Of a stretch of DNA of 64,000 nucleotides, positions 46,425-53,320 are shown piece after piece (within the stretch, counting starts at the first letter, position 1; every line of letters begins with the position of its first letter). A program made the position numbers and the translations under genes. The DNA is from Burkholderia ubonensis subsp. mesacidophila (GTDB lineage: Bacteria > Pseudomonadota > Gammaproteobacteria > Burkholderiales > Burkholderiaceae): positions 2,542,001-2,606,000 of the forward strand of contig NZ_CP020738.1 of NCBI RefSeq assembly GCF_002097715.1, written 5' to 3'. The notes below the pieces were generated by a model. That model was not told the origin of the DNA, did no database searches, and was given only the letters and a program-made list of their open reading frames with translations.

Positions 46425-46436
46425 CGCGCGTCCGGC

Positions 46437-48140
46437 TTACGACAGCGGAACGAATTCGCGGACCGTGCCATCCTCGAGGCGATAGGCCCGGTCGGCGAGC
46501 TTCAACAGCGAGTGATGGTGCGTAATGACGACGAGCGTCGGCACGCGTTGCCGGATGCGGGCGAAGATCCGCGCTTCGCGGGCGCCGTCGAGCGACGACG
46601 TCGGCTCGTCGAGAATCACGACGGACGGGCGCCTTGCGAGCGCGCGCCCCAATGCGATGCGCTGGCGCTCGCCCCCCGACAGCGCCCGGCCCTGGATGCC
46701 GAGCGGCCGGTCCAGCACGTCGCCGTCGCCGCCATTGCCGAGCTCGTGCAGCTCCAGCATGTCGACCAGCTCGCGCAGCGCTGAATCGGGCGGCGCGTCG
46801 TCGCAGCCATAGACTAGGTTCTCGCGCAACGTTCCGGTCAGGATCAGCGGCGATTGCGGCGCAACGGCCACCTCGCTCGCGATGTCGCCGACCGCCACAT
46901 CGCATACGTTTGCACCGTACAACGCCACCGTGCCGTGCGCCGGCTTCGCGAGACCCAGCATCAGATTCGCCAGACTGGATTTTCCGCCGCCGGACGGCCC
47001 CATCAGGACGACCAGCTCGCCCCGAGCGATTTTCATGTTCACGTCGCGCAGCATCGTCCGCCCGCTCCATGCAACGTCGACGTGCTCGAGACGATAGACT
47101 TCGGTGGCCGAACGATCGAACGATGCGCGCGTATCCGTTCGCTCGGCCGGAAGTTCCAGCAGGCCGAAGCCGTCGCGCAATGCGATGTGGTTGCGGCGCA
47201 GATCGGACAGCGAAGCGGCGAGACTCGCAAATGGCATCGTCAGCGCGACGATATAGCCGACGATCATCACGAAGTCGCCGACCTGAAACGTCGAGCGCGT
47301 CACTTCGACTGCCGTGACGACGGTGAACACCGTCAGCAGCACCCCGGTGCACACCGTTTGCGCGGCGAGCAGCAACGCCAGGCGGGCGTTGCCGCGGGTC
47401 AGCTTGGCCGTGTAGACGCCAAGAATCCGGTGCAGCGCCGCATCCTCGCGCACGTAGGCATTATTGAGCTTGATGTCGAGCATGAAGCCCAGCTTCTCGA
47501 CGAGATGGCTCGACAGCATGTCGGCCGCACTGAAGACCTCCGCGTGCGCGCCCTTGCTCTTGTTCGCGATACCCCATGTCACGACGAACAGGACGAGCAT
47601 CGCACCGACGAACGCGAGCGCGAATGCGCCGTTCGTCACCTGCCACAGCACGGCGCCCGACAGCACCAGCTGGAACAACGTCGGCGCAATGATCCAGAAC
47701 AGCGCCATCGAAATTGCGCTGAACGCGTCCCTGCTGCGCGCCACGATCGATACCAGTGTGCCGGGGTCGATTTCCGTCAGCCGGGCATAGTCGACCCGAA
47801 TCAACCGCGCGTAGATCGCGTGATGAAACGCCGCGTCGCATCGCGCGAGAACGGCAGCCGCAATCATGTTCTTCAGCCACTCGCACGCGTGAGCGACCGT
47901 CCACGTCACACCGTACGCGGCCGTCAGCACGACCGCCGATGCGGCATACCCGTGCACCGCGCCGAGCGACAGCGCATTGGTCGCCTGCCGCAACAGATAC
48001 GGCACGAGGGTGTACAACGTCGCAACGAGCGCCATGAACAGCGTTGCGAGGATGAAATGCACCGGCAGCCGGGGATAGCGGCTGACCGTGATCCTGTAAG
48101 CCGTGACGTAATCACTGACCAGTTCCGTTACGAAGGACAT
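46437..48140 (-). CDS. Lasso-peptide ABC exporter (D protein)
   Basis: The 567-residue protein joins about six transmembrane helices (residues 1-320) to a nucleotide-binding domain: Walker A GPSGGGKSS, signature LSGGERQRIALGRAL and Walker B VVILDEPTSSLD. This McjD-like half-transporter is the usual exporter and immunity factor of lasso peptides. Its start codon lies 13 bases inside the end of the cyclase gene, so they are translationally coupled. It is the last gene of the operon. Confidence 0.92.
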   Translation of the reverse strand: MSFVTELVSDYVTAYRITVSRYPRLPVHFILATLFMALVATLYTLVPYLLRQATNALSLGAVHGYAASAVVLTAAYGVTWTVAHACEWLKNMIAAAVLARCDAAFHHAIYARLIRVDYARLTEIDPGTLVSIVARSRDAFSAISMALFWIIAPTLFQLVLSGAVLWQVTNGAFALAFVGAMLVLFVVTWGIANKSKGAHAEVFSAADMLSSHLVEKLGFMLDIKLNNAYVREDAALHRILGVYTAKLTRGNARLALLLAAQTVCTGVLLTVFTVVTAVEVTRSTFQVGDFVMIVGYIVALTMPFASLAASLSDLRRNHIALRDGFGLLELPAERTDTRASFDRSATEVYRLEHVDVAWSGRTMLRDVNMKIARGELVVLMGPSGGGKSSLANLMLGLAKPAHGTVALYGANVCDVAVGDIASEVAVAPQSPLILTGTLRENLVYGCDDAPPDSALRELVDMLELHELGNGGDGDVLDRPLGIQGRALSGGERQRIALGRALARRPSVVILDEPTSSLDGAREARIFARIRQRVPTLVVITHHHSLLKLADRAYRLEDGTVREFVPLS

Positions 48141-49954
48141 TGAATTCCTCTTGAAACGTCCGCCTCCGACTGCGCCTTCCCCGGTCCGATCCGCGCATCG
48201 GACACCGGGCGTTCGCGCGTCGCATCGGATGAATCTTTCAGCGCTCGAACGAACATTTCGGTCGCATAGATGCGGGTGATCTCCACCAGACCGTCCGGAA
48301 AGCCCAGCGCGGCACGCTTGATCAGCCTGGCCAGCGCGTCTGGCTCGACGAGCCGGTTTGCCGCACACCAGCCGTCGACGCAAGTCTCGCGCACGTGCGC
48401 ATGATTGACCTTGATTCCCTCGAGTGCCGAATGCATGATGTCTCCCTTGTCGGTCCGCCATAGATTCGGCAGGCCGGAAGCCGCGAAGACCGATCGGCGG
48501 ACGGCGAGCCGGCTGTGATCCGCAGAAAACATCTCATCGATTCGCATGCCCAGCGCGTGCTCCACGATGGGTTGGGTCAGAAACGGCATCACGGGACGCG
48601 CGTGCGCAGTCTGCACGAGTGCGTCGTCGATGATCGCGCTTGTCGCCGCGATCTGGTACCGCCGCGCCGGCTTCAGCCGCAGCGATAGCCTGCGCATGAT
48701 ATCTCCGTTCAGGTCCGTCATCGGTCGCGGCGCACCGGGCGGTACGACCGCCTGCGACGCCGGCTGGACCGCAGGCTCTCCCAGATAGCGGGACGCCTCG
48801 GACCGAGCCTGCGCGAGCACGGTCCACAGCGGCACCCGGTAATGGATCGCGAGATCGCGCGCCGCGCGCCAGACGCGCCTGAACCGCAGGCTCGACGCCG
48901 CATCGACGAGCACGCCGAACGGCGGCTGCGCCAGGTACAGCGCGTCGCCGCCATGTCCGTTCAGCATGAGCCCGTCGCCCCCAGGAACGCCCGACTCGGC
49001 AAGACCGTTCGCATGCGCGAGAAAGCACAGCTTCGTCGCCGGGATCGCCACCGTCGGCGCACGCTCGACCGGCGTGAACGGCAGGCGCGCAAGCAGCGGA
49101 TAAGTGCGATGCTCGATCTGACAGTGATCGGCAACGGCGCGTGCAATCGACACCTCGTTCGATGACGCGCGCAGCGGATCGAAATGCGTGACCGCAACCG
49201 TCCGCCGATGCAAATCCGCTCGTCGCAACGCGACCGCCAGCGACGTCGAATCGATGCCGCCTGACAACTCGAGGAAGATCGTCGCGTCGCCGTCCAGGCA
49301 CGACCGCTGGACCATGGTCAGCACATCGATGAAGTCACGTCCATCACGACGAGCCGTCCAGTTCCAGGGTGACCACGCGCGCCGGAACTCGAGCGGCTGG
49401 TGACGTTTCCAAAGCACTGCCTGGCCGGGGGGAAGAAGCGAGATGTCGCGCCATCCGGTCGACCCGGGGTCTCCGCAGCCGTACGTCACGAACTGGCTGA
49501 GATAACGCGCATCCGGCTCCCCCGGCACCCGGCCCGGTTCGATCAGTTCGTCGATCGTGCCGCCGACGTGGACCGCGCCGTCAGCCGCCCGATGATAGAA
49601 GACCGATCGCTGGCCACATGGGTCCGACAGAATCAGGAAACGGTCCGCGCGCTTGTCATACACGATGATCGAATAGTCGCCCCAGTACCGCCGGCTCACG
49701 TCTTCGTGATCGATCAACGCCGTGCGCACGATGTCCTCCACGCACACGGGCGCGCCGTCGCGCTCAAACAGCCGGCCCTGGACGGCCCATGCCGCATTCG
49801 AATTTTCTCCGAACACCGGCGGCCGCCGTCCGTCGGACTCGCACGCGCCGAAAAACACCGCGACACAACCGCCCTCGTTCGACCAGACACGTTCGCCGCG
49901 CAGGCGCGATACGGCCTCCGGCCGCATCGATGGTTGCAATACCGCATATGCCAT
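48128..49954 (-). CDS. Lasso-peptide cyclase (C protein, asparagine synthetase-like)
   Basis: The 608-residue protein has an inactive glutamine-amidotransferase-like N-terminal domain and an asparagine-synthetase C-terminal domain with the PP-loop LELSGGIDST (residues 229-237). In lasso systems it adenylates the acidic side chain of the core and joins it to the N-terminal glycine. A TTG at 49960 would add two residues, but the ATG at 49954 is preferred. It lies 21 bases after the B gene stop. Confidence 0.94.
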   Translation of the reverse strand: MAYAVLQPSMRPEAVSRLRGERVWSNEGGCVAVFFGACESDGRRPPVFGENSNAAWAVQGRLFERDGAPVCVEDIVRTALIDHEDVSRRYWGDYSIIVYDKRADRFLILSDPCGQRSVFYHRAADGAVHVGGTIDELIEPGRVPGEPDARYLSQFVTYGCGDPGSTGWRDISLLPPGQAVLWKRHQPLEFRRAWSPWNWTARRDGRDFIDVLTMVQRSCLDGDATIFLELSGGIDSTSLAVALRRADLHRRTVAVTHFDPLRASSNEVSIARAVADHCQIEHRTYPLLARLPFTPVERAPTVAIPATKLCFLAHANGLAESGVPGGDGLMLNGHGGDALYLAQPPFGVLVDAASSLRFRRVWRAARDLAIHYRVPLWTVLAQARSEASRYLGEPAVQPASQAVVPPGAPRPMTDLNGDIMRRLSLRLKPARRYQIAATSAIIDDALVQTAHARPVMPFLTQPIVEHALGMRIDEMFSADHSRLAVRRSVFAASGLPNLWRTDKGDIMHSALEGIKVNHAHVRETCVDGWCAANRLVEPDALARLIKRAALGFPDGLVEITRIYATEMFVRALKDSSDATRERPVSDARIGPGKAQSEADVSRGIQCPS

Positions 49955-49975
49955 GATCAACGCACCGTCGAATCA

Positions 49976-50635
49976 CTAGATTTCGAGAATGACCGCCAGT
50001 TGATCGCGGAGCGTGCTTTCGTCCCCGACCACCTCGCCGTCGAGTTCGGCCCATGCGTGCGCATAGAACGGCCGGCTCTGCACGCCGACGACCAGCCGAA
50101 GATCGTGACCGTAGCGAAAGCCGAGCAAAACCAGCACCGCCCCCCACTCAAGGCACTTGGTCTTCTTCGTGTACAACATGCAGGCTGCATTCAGCGAACG
50201 GATCAGCACATCGATACCAACCGTGCTGCGCTTGCTGCGCGCAAGCCGCTTCCGCTCGATCAGGCGTTTCAGTCCAATCATCCGCTCGGCATTCGCGCAG
50301 CGATGCACGCAGCGGAGCAGCGCCAGCGCTCGCGCAACGATCAGCACGTTCGCCGAAAACGATACGTCGCGCTCCTTGAGCATCCAGCAGTTCAGCGACA
50401 CGCCGGAATATGCGCTGCGCGGGCCAGCACTGATCCATTCGAGCGCCGACTCGTCATTCGGCAATGCGACGCCGAACCCCATCTCGCCACCACGGCCACT
50501 GCCCGCGCGAGCTTCGTCGGCGCGGCGCCTCAACTCCCTCGATTGCCGCTCGGAAAATACCGTATAGGCGTCACTCGCCATATCGAGGCTGATTAGCTGA
50601 TTTTCGAACCAGGCAAAATGAATATCTCTATTCAT
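49976..50635 (-). CDS. Lasso-peptide leader peptidase (B protein, RRE plus transglutaminase fold)
   Basis: The 219-residue protein combines an N-terminal RiPP-recognition element (HFAWFENQLISLDMASDAY region, about residues 1-80) and a C-terminal transglutaminase-core-3 protease. The expected triad is Cys161 (TKCLEWG), His193 (AHAWAELDG) and Asp199. It binds the precursor leader and cuts it before the core. One fused B gene is usual for proteobacteria; actinobacteria often split it. Its start lies 57 bases after the precursor gene, across a GC-rich hairpin. Confidence 0.93.
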   Translation of the reverse strand: MNRDIHFAWFENQLISLDMASDAYTVFSERQSRELRRRADEARAGSGRGGEMGFGVALPNDESALEWISAGPRSAYSGVSLNCWMLKERDVSFSANVLIVARALALLRCVHRCANAERMIGLKRLIERKRLARSKRSTVGIDVLIRSLNAACMLYTKKTKCLEWGAVLVLLGFRYGHDLRLVVGVQSRPFYAHAWAELDGEVVGDESTLRDQLAVILEI

Positions 50636-50646
50636 ATTATCCGCTC

Positions 50647-50671
50647 GCCCACCCCAACTGACGGGGCGGGC
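50647..50671 (-). promoter_or_regulatory. Hairpin between precursor and maturation genes
   Basis: A 9-base-pair stem (GCCCGCCCC with GGGGTGGGC, one G-U pair) and loop GTCAGTT lies between the precursor stop and the B gene start. Such a structure can attenuate transcription or protect the upstream RNA from decay, so that more precursor than enzyme is made. No T-run follows. Confidence 0.7.
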
Positions 50672-50692
50672 TCGAATCAGTGAACGAAGCGC

Positions 50693-50824
50693 TTAGAACT
50701 TATACACCCACGCACCGATTTCCAGGATCGACCCGCCCCGGGTGCCTTGCGTAGACTCGGTCGCATTCACCGTCTCGACTTCTTCGAAATCCAGAACTTC
50801 AACGATTTCCTGTTGCTGATCCAT
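50693..50824 (-). CDS. Lasso-peptide precursor (A peptide)
   Basis: This 43-codon gene encodes an acidic leader (residues 1-26, containing VLDFEEVETVNATESTQ) and a core GTRGGSILEIGAWVYKF (27-43). The marks are: Thr25 at position -2 of the leader end, Gly27 as core residue 1, and Glu35 as core residue 9, giving a nine-residue macrolactam ring; and the operon order A-B-C-D with the maturation enzymes. A strong AAGGAGAGG lies six bases before the ATG. The product should be a threaded peptide with an eight-residue tail, where Trp, Tyr or Phe could lock the ring. Activity, perhaps antibacterial, is unknown. Confidence 0.92.
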   Translation of the reverse strand: MDQQQEIVEVLDFEEVETVNATESTQGTRGGSILEIGAWVYKF

Positions 50825-50892
50825 TTAACCTCTCCTTATTCAAAAAATCACAACCAGACATGATTCGCAAAAAAAGAAGACAGAAAAACTTC

Positions 50893-50909
50893 AAGCATTT
50901 CGAATGCTT
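50893..50909. promoter_or_regulatory. Inverted repeat in the precursor leader region
   Basis: A perfect 7-base inverted repeat AAGCATT-TCG-AATGCTT lies just downstream of the candidate -10 box of the precursor gene (minus strand). It could be an operator or a hairpin in the leader RNA. Confidence 0.45.
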
Positions 50910-50914
50910 CATAT

Positions 50915-50944
50915 ATTATCAAGCAAACCGTAATGCCGAAGTAA
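50915..50944 (-). promoter_or_regulatory. Candidate promoter of the lasso-peptide operon
   Basis: On the minus strand TTACTT (50939-50944) and GATAAT (50915-50920) are separated by 18 bases, in a strongly AT-rich stretch 90-120 bases before the precursor ATG. The match is moderate; other TA-rich hexamers nearby are possible. The 267 bases between the precursor and the divergent S10 gene (50825-51091) hold no other gene. Confidence 0.45.
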
Positions 50945-51091
50945 TTCTATTGGAAAAATCCTCATCCGCAACAATCCAGCCCGGATAATATTTCCCAATT
51001 GATTAAAAATGTTCATATTAAATATCAATCACGCCGATTCCACACGAAATAAATTCACCATTCGAATCAATTACTCTCATAAGATCGGTTA

Positions 51092-52648
51092 ATGAAAAAC
51101 AACCTCCCGAACTCTCGACATGCGTGGCGGCTGCTCGCGGCACTGACGACGCTGCTTTGCGCATGCGGCGGTCAGGACCATGATGCTGCACCCGGCCAAT
51201 CGCCTCCATTGCCCGCATCCGCGTCACAGCCGGCGGCCGGCATCGACCGGCCGTTCGTCGACGAGCGCTCGTACTCGAATCGCGGCGACGCCGCGCTGAA
51301 CGATGCATCCGAAGCGGCCGCCGTCGTTCATCGACAGATCATGGTCGGCGGCCGCACGCTGCCCTACACGGCAACCACGGGACATCTGTCCGCGACGGAC
51401 CGCGATACGGGGAAGCGCGCTTCGATGTTCTACGTTGCGTACTCGGTCGACAATATTGATCCCGTCCGACGTCCGGTCACGTTCCTGTTCAACGGCGGTC
51501 CCGTTACCGCGAGCGTCTGGTTGCATCTCGGCAGTTGGGGGCCCAAGCGGATTTCGACGGAGACACGCGCCGCGGACGGAAGCAGCTACCCGTTGATCGA
51601 TTCCAGCGACAGCCTGCTCGACCAGACCGATCTCGTGTTCGTCGATGCCGTCGGCTCCGGCTATTCGCAAGCGATCGCGCCGAGCGTGAATCGGGATTTC
51701 TGGGGCGTGGACGCGGACGCGACCGTATTCCGCGACTTCATCTCGCGTTACGTCGCCGTCAACGGACGCGGCGCATCCCCAATCTATCTCTACGGGGAAT
51801 CGTACGGCGGCATTCGCGCGGGCGTGCTCGCCGATCTTCTCGAAACGGCGGGCATCAAGGTGAGCGGCGTCGTGCTGAACTCGCCGATCCTGAATTTCAA
51901 CACCGCATGCGACCTCGGTGCGCCGGATTGCACAGGTTTCGTTCCGACCTACGCCGCGGTATCCACGTATCACCGCGTGTCGAACAAGCCCGAGGCGATG
52001 TCGCCCGCCGACTACATCGAGCAGGCTCGCCGCTTTTCCATCGACGCGTATCGGCCCGCGCTGCGGGCCAGCATCGACCTCGGCACCGCACCATCCATCG
52101 CACTGTTGTCGGCATTGAACGGCTACACCGGTCTTGCGTCGAGCCTGTGGGCGAATCATCTCAACCTGACGCCCGACATTTACTCCGTCAACGTGAAGCC
52201 GGGATACGTCGTCGACATCAATGACGGACGTCTCGCCACGCCGGCCGGCGGCGACTGGAGCGATCCATACAGCGACGCGTTCGAAAGCCACATCCGCACG
52301 CTGCTCCCCGGCTTCCTCGGCTACCGGAGCGGATCAACCTATTCGATGGCCGCGGGTGACTCCTGGCAATGGACGCACGACGGGCTGCCATTGCCCGATG
52401 CAATTCCCGATCTCGCCTCGGCGCTCACTCAGAATCCCGATATGAAGATCCTCGCATTGAACGGCTACCACGACCTGAACTGTCCATTTTTCCAGACCGA
52501 TCTGGAACTGGCGCGAATCGGCAAGATGTCGCAGGTGCGCTCGTACACATTCGCCGGCGGGCACATGACCTACCTGACCGAAGCGTCGCCCGAGCCGTTG
52601 AGACAGGCATTGCGCGATTTCTACGGACACCCCGGAGCCGGATCATGA
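51092..52648 (+). CDS. S10-family serine carboxypeptidase-like lipoprotein
   Basis: The 518-residue protein has a lipoprotein signal (Cys25 in LLCACGG) and an alpha/beta-hydrolase peptidase domain of the S10 type: nucleophile Ser237 in GESYGG, Asp461 in NGYHDLNCPF and His491 in GGHMTY, in the expected order. It should trim C-terminal residues of peptides outside the cytoplasm. It diverges from the lasso operon and its stop codon overlaps the EF-hand gene start (ATGA). A role in processing or destroying the lasso peptide is a guess from position. Confidence 0.88.
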   Translation: MKNNLPNSRHAWRLLAALTTLLCACGGQDHDAAPGQSPPLPASASQPAAGIDRPFVDERSYSNRGDAALNDASEAAAVVHRQIMVGGRTLPYTATTGHLSATDRDTGKRASMFYVAYSVDNIDPVRRPVTFLFNGGPVTASVWLHLGSWGPKRISTETRAADGSSYPLIDSSDSLLDQTDLVFVDAVGSGYSQAIAPSVNRDFWGVDADATVFRDFISRYVAVNGRGASPIYLYGESYGGIRAGVLADLLETAGIKVSGVVLNSPILNFNTACDLGAPDCTGFVPTYAAVSTYHRVSNKPEAMSPADYIEQARRFSIDAYRPALRASIDLGTAPSIALLSALNGYTGLASSLWANHLNLTPDIYSVNVKPGYVVDINDGRLATPAGGDWSDPYSDAFESHIRTLLPGFLGYRSGSTYSMAAGDSWQWTHDGLPLPDAIPDLASALTQNPDMKILALNGYHDLNCPFFQTDLELARIGKMSQVRSYTFAGGHMTYLTEASPEPLRQALRDFYGHPGAGS

Positions 52649-53109
52649 CCGTCAAGACACCTCGCCCATTCCACCCGGCCGCCGCTTGGCCACGCAGCAT
52701 GGTCCATCCCGCGCTGCGCGCGCGCGTCTTCGCCATCGCATTGACGGGCGTGCTGTCGTGCGCCCCGAGACTCGCCAGCGCCGACGCGGCAGCGAATGCC
52801 GCATATGGCCCGGGCGCGGAGCGACAGCGCACGCAACCGGAGCGCATCGAGATTCCGCGCGACATCCGGCAGCCGACCGAACCGCCCTTGTCAGGACAAG
52901 ATCTGCTACAACATTTGCGCGACCGTTACCGACAACGTTTCGACGCGGCCGACGTGCAAGGAGCGGGCCGCATCACCAAAGAACAGGCGCGTCGCGCCGG
53001 ATGGGGCTACGTTGTACGAAACTTCGACGCAATGGATGGGACGGGTAGCGGAACCGTCGGCTTCAGCGACATCATGAACTTCATGCGCCGCAACGGGGCC
53101 GGCTTGTAA
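52645..53109 (+). CDS. Exported EF-hand-like protein
   Basis: The 154-residue protein has an N-terminal signal peptide (about residues 20-46) and two EF-hand-like segments near the C-terminus: FDAADVQGAGRITKEQA (loop about 103-114, lacking several ligands) and FDAMDGTGSGTVGFSDI (loop about 131-142, better, but ending in Asp rather than Glu). It may bind one calcium ion. Its start overlaps the S10 peptidase stop, so a functional partnership is likely. Confidence 0.78.
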   Translation: MTVKTPRPFHPAAAWPRSMVHPALRARVFAIALTGVLSCAPRLASADAAANAAYGPGAERQRTQPERIEIPRDIRQPTEPPLSGQDLLQHLRDRYRQRFDAADVQGAGRITKEQARRAGWGYVVRNFDAMDGTGSGTVGFSDIMNFMRRNGAGL

Positions 53110-53320
53110 CGAACGCCGCGCGACCGACCGGCGTTCGGCGCACCGCCGCTTCTCGTTGCGTCAAGCGCCGCTGCCGTGATCGCGACACCCGCATCCGGCG
53201 CCGTGCGCGTGACAAATGTAGTTGACCTGACTACGATCGAAGCCAAATCAGCTACAAATTTCCTGCAAACCGCCGTGCCGACGCCTCCAACACGATCCGG
53301 CAGCAAACACCCCGGCCACG

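Follow-up and report, generated by a model that had tools for sequence, protein, structure and literature searches.

What does the four-gene operon on the minus strand at positions 46437-50824 of this window produce, and to which lasso peptides is it related? The window is the whole 64,000-nucleotide stretch analysed here, positions 2,542,001 to 2,606,000 of contig NZ_CP020738.1 of Burkholderia ubonensis subsp. mesacidophila; all coordinates are window positions, window genes are those of the operon under study, and G000 and G038 denote the window's own genome and that of B. singularis. We conclude that the locus is very probably an intact class II lasso-peptide operon yielding an exported 17-residue lasso peptide, and its sequences place it in a separate Burkholderiaceae lasso clade.

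All four frames are open and lie in the order A-B-C-D. Gene A (50693-50824, minus strand), recognised as an open reading frame with homologous precursors, encodes a 43-amino-acid precursor whose leader (residues 1-26) ends in NATESTQ and whose core (residues 27-43) is GTRGGSILEIGAWVYKF; in the 267 bases that separate A from the next gene, GC drops to 34%. Gene B (49976-50635, minus) encodes a 219-amino-acid leader peptidase in which an RRE-like N-terminal part precedes a transglutaminase-like Cys protease domain, gene C (48128-49954, minus) a 608-amino-acid asparagine-synthetase-like macrolactam synthetase with an SGGIDS ATP-binding motif, and gene D (46437-48140, minus) a 567-amino-acid ABC exporter with fused membrane and ATPase domains, presumed to serve export and self-immunity. 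Pfam and NCBIfam searches identified B as a transglutaminase-like lasso B2 protein (lasso_biosyn_B2, above cut-off), C as an asparagine-synthase homologue (Asn_synthase, E 3.1e-13, with scores under the cut-offs of the curated NCBIfam lasso cyclase models) and D as an ABC transporter. The earlier note had called this a complete lasso-peptide operon, a description that the domains, motifs and gene order bear out.

Conservation points the same way. The catalytic triad of B (Cys161, His193 and Asp205) is invariant in all 16 aligned B proteins, and residues 2-62 matched TbiB1 weakly in a comparison of RRE leader-binding domains. An AlphaFold2 model of B reached a mean predicted local distance difference test score (pLDDT) of 87. 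Among solved structures, sequence searches gave no convincing match to B (1 chain, E 0.41) or to the precursor profile (4 chains, E 1 or worse), and Foldseek returned 0 matches at E<=0.001. B has a single match within its own genome (7.84 Mb, 4 contigs). The A-B-C-D order recurs in B. singularis and five further loci, with four open frames in B. singularis and 4 of those 5, and synonymous changes outnumber non-synonymous ones in A and likewise in D.

The 17-residue core contains no Cys, and Glu9 is its sole acidic residue, so Gly1-Glu9 is the only standard ring closure. Thr25 (position -2), Gly27 (core residue 1) and Glu35 (core residue 9) of A are the residues expected of a lasso precursor and are the same in all 13 distinct cores of the family described below, which upholds the Gly1-Glu9 ring predicted earlier. 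Recomputation also reproduced the masses quoted with that prediction (monoisotopic neutral 1834.97 Da for the macrolactam, 1852.98 Da for the linear core); to a further decimal, the predicted 17-residue product has a mass of 1834.973 Da and an [M+2H]2+ ion at 918.494.

A single-sequence search with A across 5.8 billion proteins returned one homologue only, 64% identical, and a search of the genus was positive in 4 of 65 genomes, the window's own included. We built a profile from four precursors and ran it on 398 Burkholderiaceae genomes (E<=0.1) and on database proteins. Fifteen genomes matched, eight of them strongly (E<1e-12, the window's own among them), as did nine database proteins, including ones from Cupriavidus sp. 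CP313 and B. multivorans (core out of frame). The weak matches in the other 7 of the 15 genomes (E 0.02-0.09) were kept out of the family; two of these genomes, G325 and G078, carry what look like other lasso precursors. Thirteen distinct cores were counted once duplicates had been removed (P0008 of P0007, G039 of G036 and G177 of G396) together with the out-of-frame P0009; the analysis makes no use of loci L049-L051. P0009, from B. multivorans, has a family leader followed by a core running out of frame, probably another decayed operon.

Across these 13 cores the motif is G-x-x-[G/S]-G-[A/S]-[I/M]-L-E-x3-[W/F]-[V/I]-[Y/K]. Gly1, Gly5, Leu8 and Glu9 are invariant (13/13), as is the leader Thr at -2; Gly4, Trp13, Val14 and Tyr15 are each conserved in 12; and positions 2, 3, 10-12, 16 and 17 vary, with core lengths of 16-20 residues and a natural end at Lys16 in the Cupriavidus core. 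The earlier note had proposed Trp13, Tyr15 and Phe17 as plugs. The first two fit their conservation, whereas position 17 may be E, F, L, R or absent, making Trp13 and Tyr15 better plug candidates than Phe17. Since both the ring and the tail aromatics are almost fixed, we infer that Trp13 and Tyr15 would act as plugs and that the ring may have a constant function across the family. The core had also been called distinctive; the papers searched contain no identical core, but the family to which it belongs is conserved and has at least 13 distinct members.

The cyclases delimit the same family. The window cyclase shares 67% identity with its B. singularis counterpart, 59% with that of G259, 54-55% with those of G396 and G177, 48% with that of G387, 44-45% with those of G036 and G039 and 44% with that of G070 (44-68% overall); outside the family, identity falls to 35-38% for Pandoraea, 28-30% for the burhizin/mycetohabin type and 24.6% for the capistruin-type cyclase of G021. 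In a maximum-likelihood tree of 21 cyclases, nine family members formed one clade (support 95/98), with the pandonodin-, burhizin/mycetohabin-, capistruin- and ubonodin-type cyclases all outside it. The tree program warned that the long branches (capistruin, ubonodin-like, G325, G078 and G070) are placed unsurely, and the grouping of the clade with the pandonodin type is weak (60/76). The window operon has both features by which we define the GxxGG[AS]ILE clade in the present analysis, namely the core motif and a cyclase within the nine-member clade.

From these observed genes, motifs, conservation, gene order and clade, and by analogy with known lasso biosynthesis, we predict how cleavage, cyclisation, threading and export would proceed. 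The putative RRE of B would bind the leader of A, and the Cys-His-Asp peptidase of B would cut after Gln26, with Thr25 at -2. C would then activate the Glu9 side chain with ATP and couple it to the amine of Gly1 exposed by the cut, so that a ring of nine residues encloses a tail held by Trp13 and/or Tyr15, and D would export the 17-residue product and protect the producer. A GC-rich stem-loop with a 10-bp stem lies between A and B, directly after A (50647-50671, minus strand), and we infer that its role is to hold expression of A higher than that of B, C and D. For the 57-nt spacer separating A from B, the folding energy is -26.6 kcal/mol (z -2.8 relative to 200 shuffled sequences), and B. singularis, G036, G039, G387 and G070 have stems that differ in sequence in the corresponding position (spacer z-scores -2.9 in B. 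singularis, -4.0 in G036, -2.4 in G387 and -3.5 in G070); the G396 spacer is longer, with z -1.7. Engineering of the capistruin cluster with a replaced A-B spacer gave higher yield in E. coli, according to the excerpted text of PMC7549694.

Pfam recognised no isopeptidase-type gene among the neighbouring genes scanned. Clusters for antibacterial lasso peptides, capistruin and ubonodin among them, are arranged in this way, with an exporter D and no isopeptidase-type gene, and on that ground our best guess at activity and target is a narrow-spectrum antibacterial product directed against related bacteria. Capistruin and ubonodin inhibit RNA polymerase, as stated in excerpts of PMC13352647 and PMC8506256.

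Could the mature product be shorter than 17 residues? Divergent from A lies a gene for an S10 serine carboxypeptidase (51092-52648, plus strand; Pfam Peptidase_S10), overlapped by a gene for an EF-hand-like protein (52645-53109, plus) whose EF-hand_6 match falls under the Pfam cut-off (22.7 versus 25 bits); both products carry an apparent export signal, judged from the N-terminus of the S10 protein and from the sequence of the EF-hand-like one. The pair likewise flanks A in B. singularis (S10 about 68-70% identical, EF-hand 48%), and a close S10 orthologue was found only in G000 and G038 among 65 genus genomes, the next best being 48-49% identical. The outer flanks differ between the two species, in that the genes following here map to another contig in B. 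singularis (G038:C12 versus C36). The S10/EF-hand pair thus travels with the operon in one sub-lineage. An EF-hand-like gene also follows S10 in all three paralogue loci examined. After export, the carboxypeptidase would remove Phe17 or Lys16-Phe17, leaving a 16- or 15-residue lasso of 1687.905 or 1559.810 Da. Such trimming would suit an S10 copy that adjoins the operon at different chromosomal places in the two genomes, window and B. singularis cores that both end in a hydrophobic residue (F and L), the Cupriavidus core that stops naturally at Lys16 and, in the excerpted text of PMC13352647, endogenous carboxypeptidases that trim other lasso peptides down to the lower plug. We nevertheless consider it unlikely: no S10 match was present in the loci of G036, G039, G396 and G070 (16 kb searched in each; the G387 contig ends 0.47 kb upstream of A and is unjudgeable), and nearly every genome of the genus has an S10 match (64 of 65, E<=1e-20), so this copy may be an unrelated passenger.

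The operon and the S10/EF-hand pair together form a variable stretch of ~6.9 kb (46430-53320, no strand assigned), whose flanks stand near each other in G062 and G010, where only remnants of it survive. In G062 the ~450 bp between the flanks consist of D fragments and parts of the right edge; the idea that the 6.9-kb stretch had inserted cleanly and precisely at that site was therefore rejected, and the state of the site indicates loss, not absence. In G010, D is open and 95% identical to window D, its frame now also reading on from a C remnant as one long frame; C is in pieces, and the locus has no match to A, B, S10 or the EF-hand gene. G259, from another genus (g3), has an open D and a C shortened at its start, with A and B absent from the 10.5 kb examined. 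In G177, A lies on one contig (L066:8285-8416) with no B, C or D behind it, while open C and D and rearranged pieces of B lie on another (L121), either a split operon or an assembly break. B and D are interrupted in G396, a draft genome of 86% completeness. Overall, 6 of the 11 family loci examined are intact and 5 degraded; B is lost or broken in all five degraded loci, and D is open in three and lost or interrupted in two.

Has D been kept for a reason? On the G010 branch D accumulated 15 non-synonymous and 20 synonymous changes against a neutral expectation of 73% non-synonymous (binomial p 1.4e-4), a count that partly includes changes from before the loss. Changes on the G010 versus the window branch number 40 versus 19 in C and 35 versus 35 in D (Fisher p 0.0496). 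These figures are only suggestive of retention of D in G010 by selection, which would be compatible with kept immunity, and deletions that begin at the A side would spare D passively, since it stands last in the operon. It is quite unlikely, in our estimate, that both threads hold at once, with some producers carrying a dedicated S10 enzyme for extracellular tailoring of the threaded tail and some non-producers shedding A and B while keeping D as stand-alone immunity. If true, the ecology of producers, immune non-producers and sensitive strains would be readable from the remnants.

The sister genomes G010 and G062, with differing remnants at the same site, also raise the prospect that the operon is silent or decaying in the window lineage and makes no product. 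We hold this very unlikely, given the four open frames in the window, the conservation of A and the 11 non-synonymous to 24 synonymous changes in D on the window branch.

How does this operon relate to known lasso peptides? For the loci compared, the capistruin, burhizin and pandonodin names are our assumption, made on their core sequences. Those of Mycetohabitans, which we take to be of the burhizin/mycetohabin type from the burhizin core, are likewise Burkholderiaceae lasso operons with A, B, C and D, but have GGxGxYxE cores, rings of eight and cyclases only 28-30% identical to the window's; mycetohabin identity, raised by the 16 residues implied in the name mycetohabin-16, was rejected on these cores and cyclases. 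The ubonodin-like operon of G047 shares the genus and the A-B-C-D order, but its 28-residue core ends in Tyr-Gly and its cyclase is about 20-22% identical over the matched part. Its precursor core (L093, ~1160-1245), GGDGGIAEYFNRPMHIYDWQIMDSGYYG, resembles ubonodin but differs from it at two places. The Pandoraea (pandonodin-type) loci share the A-B-C-D order and have the nearest cyclases among the characterised types compared (35-38%), with B about 28-30% and D only 26% identical to their window counterparts; their core has 33 residues, a ring to Glu8 and two Cys. Excerpts of PMC13352647 describe the disulfide, core length and long tail of pandonodin. Membership of this class IV type, which has two tail cysteines and a core of ~33 residues, was rejected for the 17-residue, Cys-free window core. 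Finally, we give almost no credence to the earlier note's reading of a capistruin-like Burkholderia peptide: the genus, Gly1-Thr2 start, nine-residue ring and four genes in A-B-C-D order are shared with capistruin of the Burkholderia thailandensis group, but capistruin has a 19-residue core with other ring and tail sequences, Thr2 occurs in only 2 of 13 family cores, B aligns over just 59 residues (39% identity), and the G021 cyclase is non-orthologous (24.6%), its long branch falling outside the 95/98 clade with unsure placement. Capistruin kinship is thereby contradicted; a shared target could still hold.

Other lasso-type loci came to light alongside. G325 (genus g3; L094:4350-8510) has a lasso-like locus ordered A, C, B, D, with a possible core GTGGGSIVEGRYAVYKCPYGLISPRC containing two Cys and a D 37% identical to window D, and G078 (genus g15; L095:3344-6288) has one whose precursor, with a possible core GMNGVVLEGVQGRFSV, follows C instead of preceding B. 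Three small g18 genomes (1.9-2.8 Mb), including G101, each carry one or two lasso-type cyclases, and the G101 cores (L128) are burhizin/mycetohabin-like. B-like proteins also occur in metagenome-assembled genomes of Babeliales/Dependentiae (L011:4083-4445, 38%, and L012:6001-6651, 28% identical to window B over the matched part). Transposase-like open reading frames, identified from their translations, flank the family operon of G036 (L031, 3184-4065 and 9677-10534), suggesting mobility there. Plasmid carriage was rejected: cyclase matches occurred in 16 of 72,556 plasmid records, none at >=60% identity, and the best-covered was 27% identical.

The operon is ordinary in kind and, as far as could be searched, represents a new and apparently uncharacterised sequence family. 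Full-text literature searches with the core, core fragments and family motifs found no report, though supplements, figures and most subscription journals lie outside their reach and a prediction list could hold the family; together with the nearest protein-search homologue at 64% identity, this bears out the earlier note's novelty claim as far as an identical core is concerned. Window B shares 90% identity, across 77% of its length, with a B. ubonensis protein (locus tag WI84_29360). In the databases B is annotated (P0010 here; P0011 in B. ubonensis, WI84_29360) as 168 residues without the N-terminal domain, and P0011 bears the name "hypothetical protein"; automated mining may thus have missed some clusters.

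Capistruin and ubonodin appear among the Burkholderia products listed in excerpts of PMC10826400, and excerpts of PMC8506256 report lasso clusters in 17 of 60 Burkholderia species (28%). In these excerpts capistruin and ubonodin are the lasso peptides named as characterised from Burkholderia sensu stricto, despite the share of species with clusters. The enzyme clade of the present operon is a separate one, and the near-constancy of its ring may be the sign of a conserved target or receptor. Exact predicted masses are now available to look for, and the loci that occur naturally as intact, D-keeping or lost would allow a test of the role of D in immunity.

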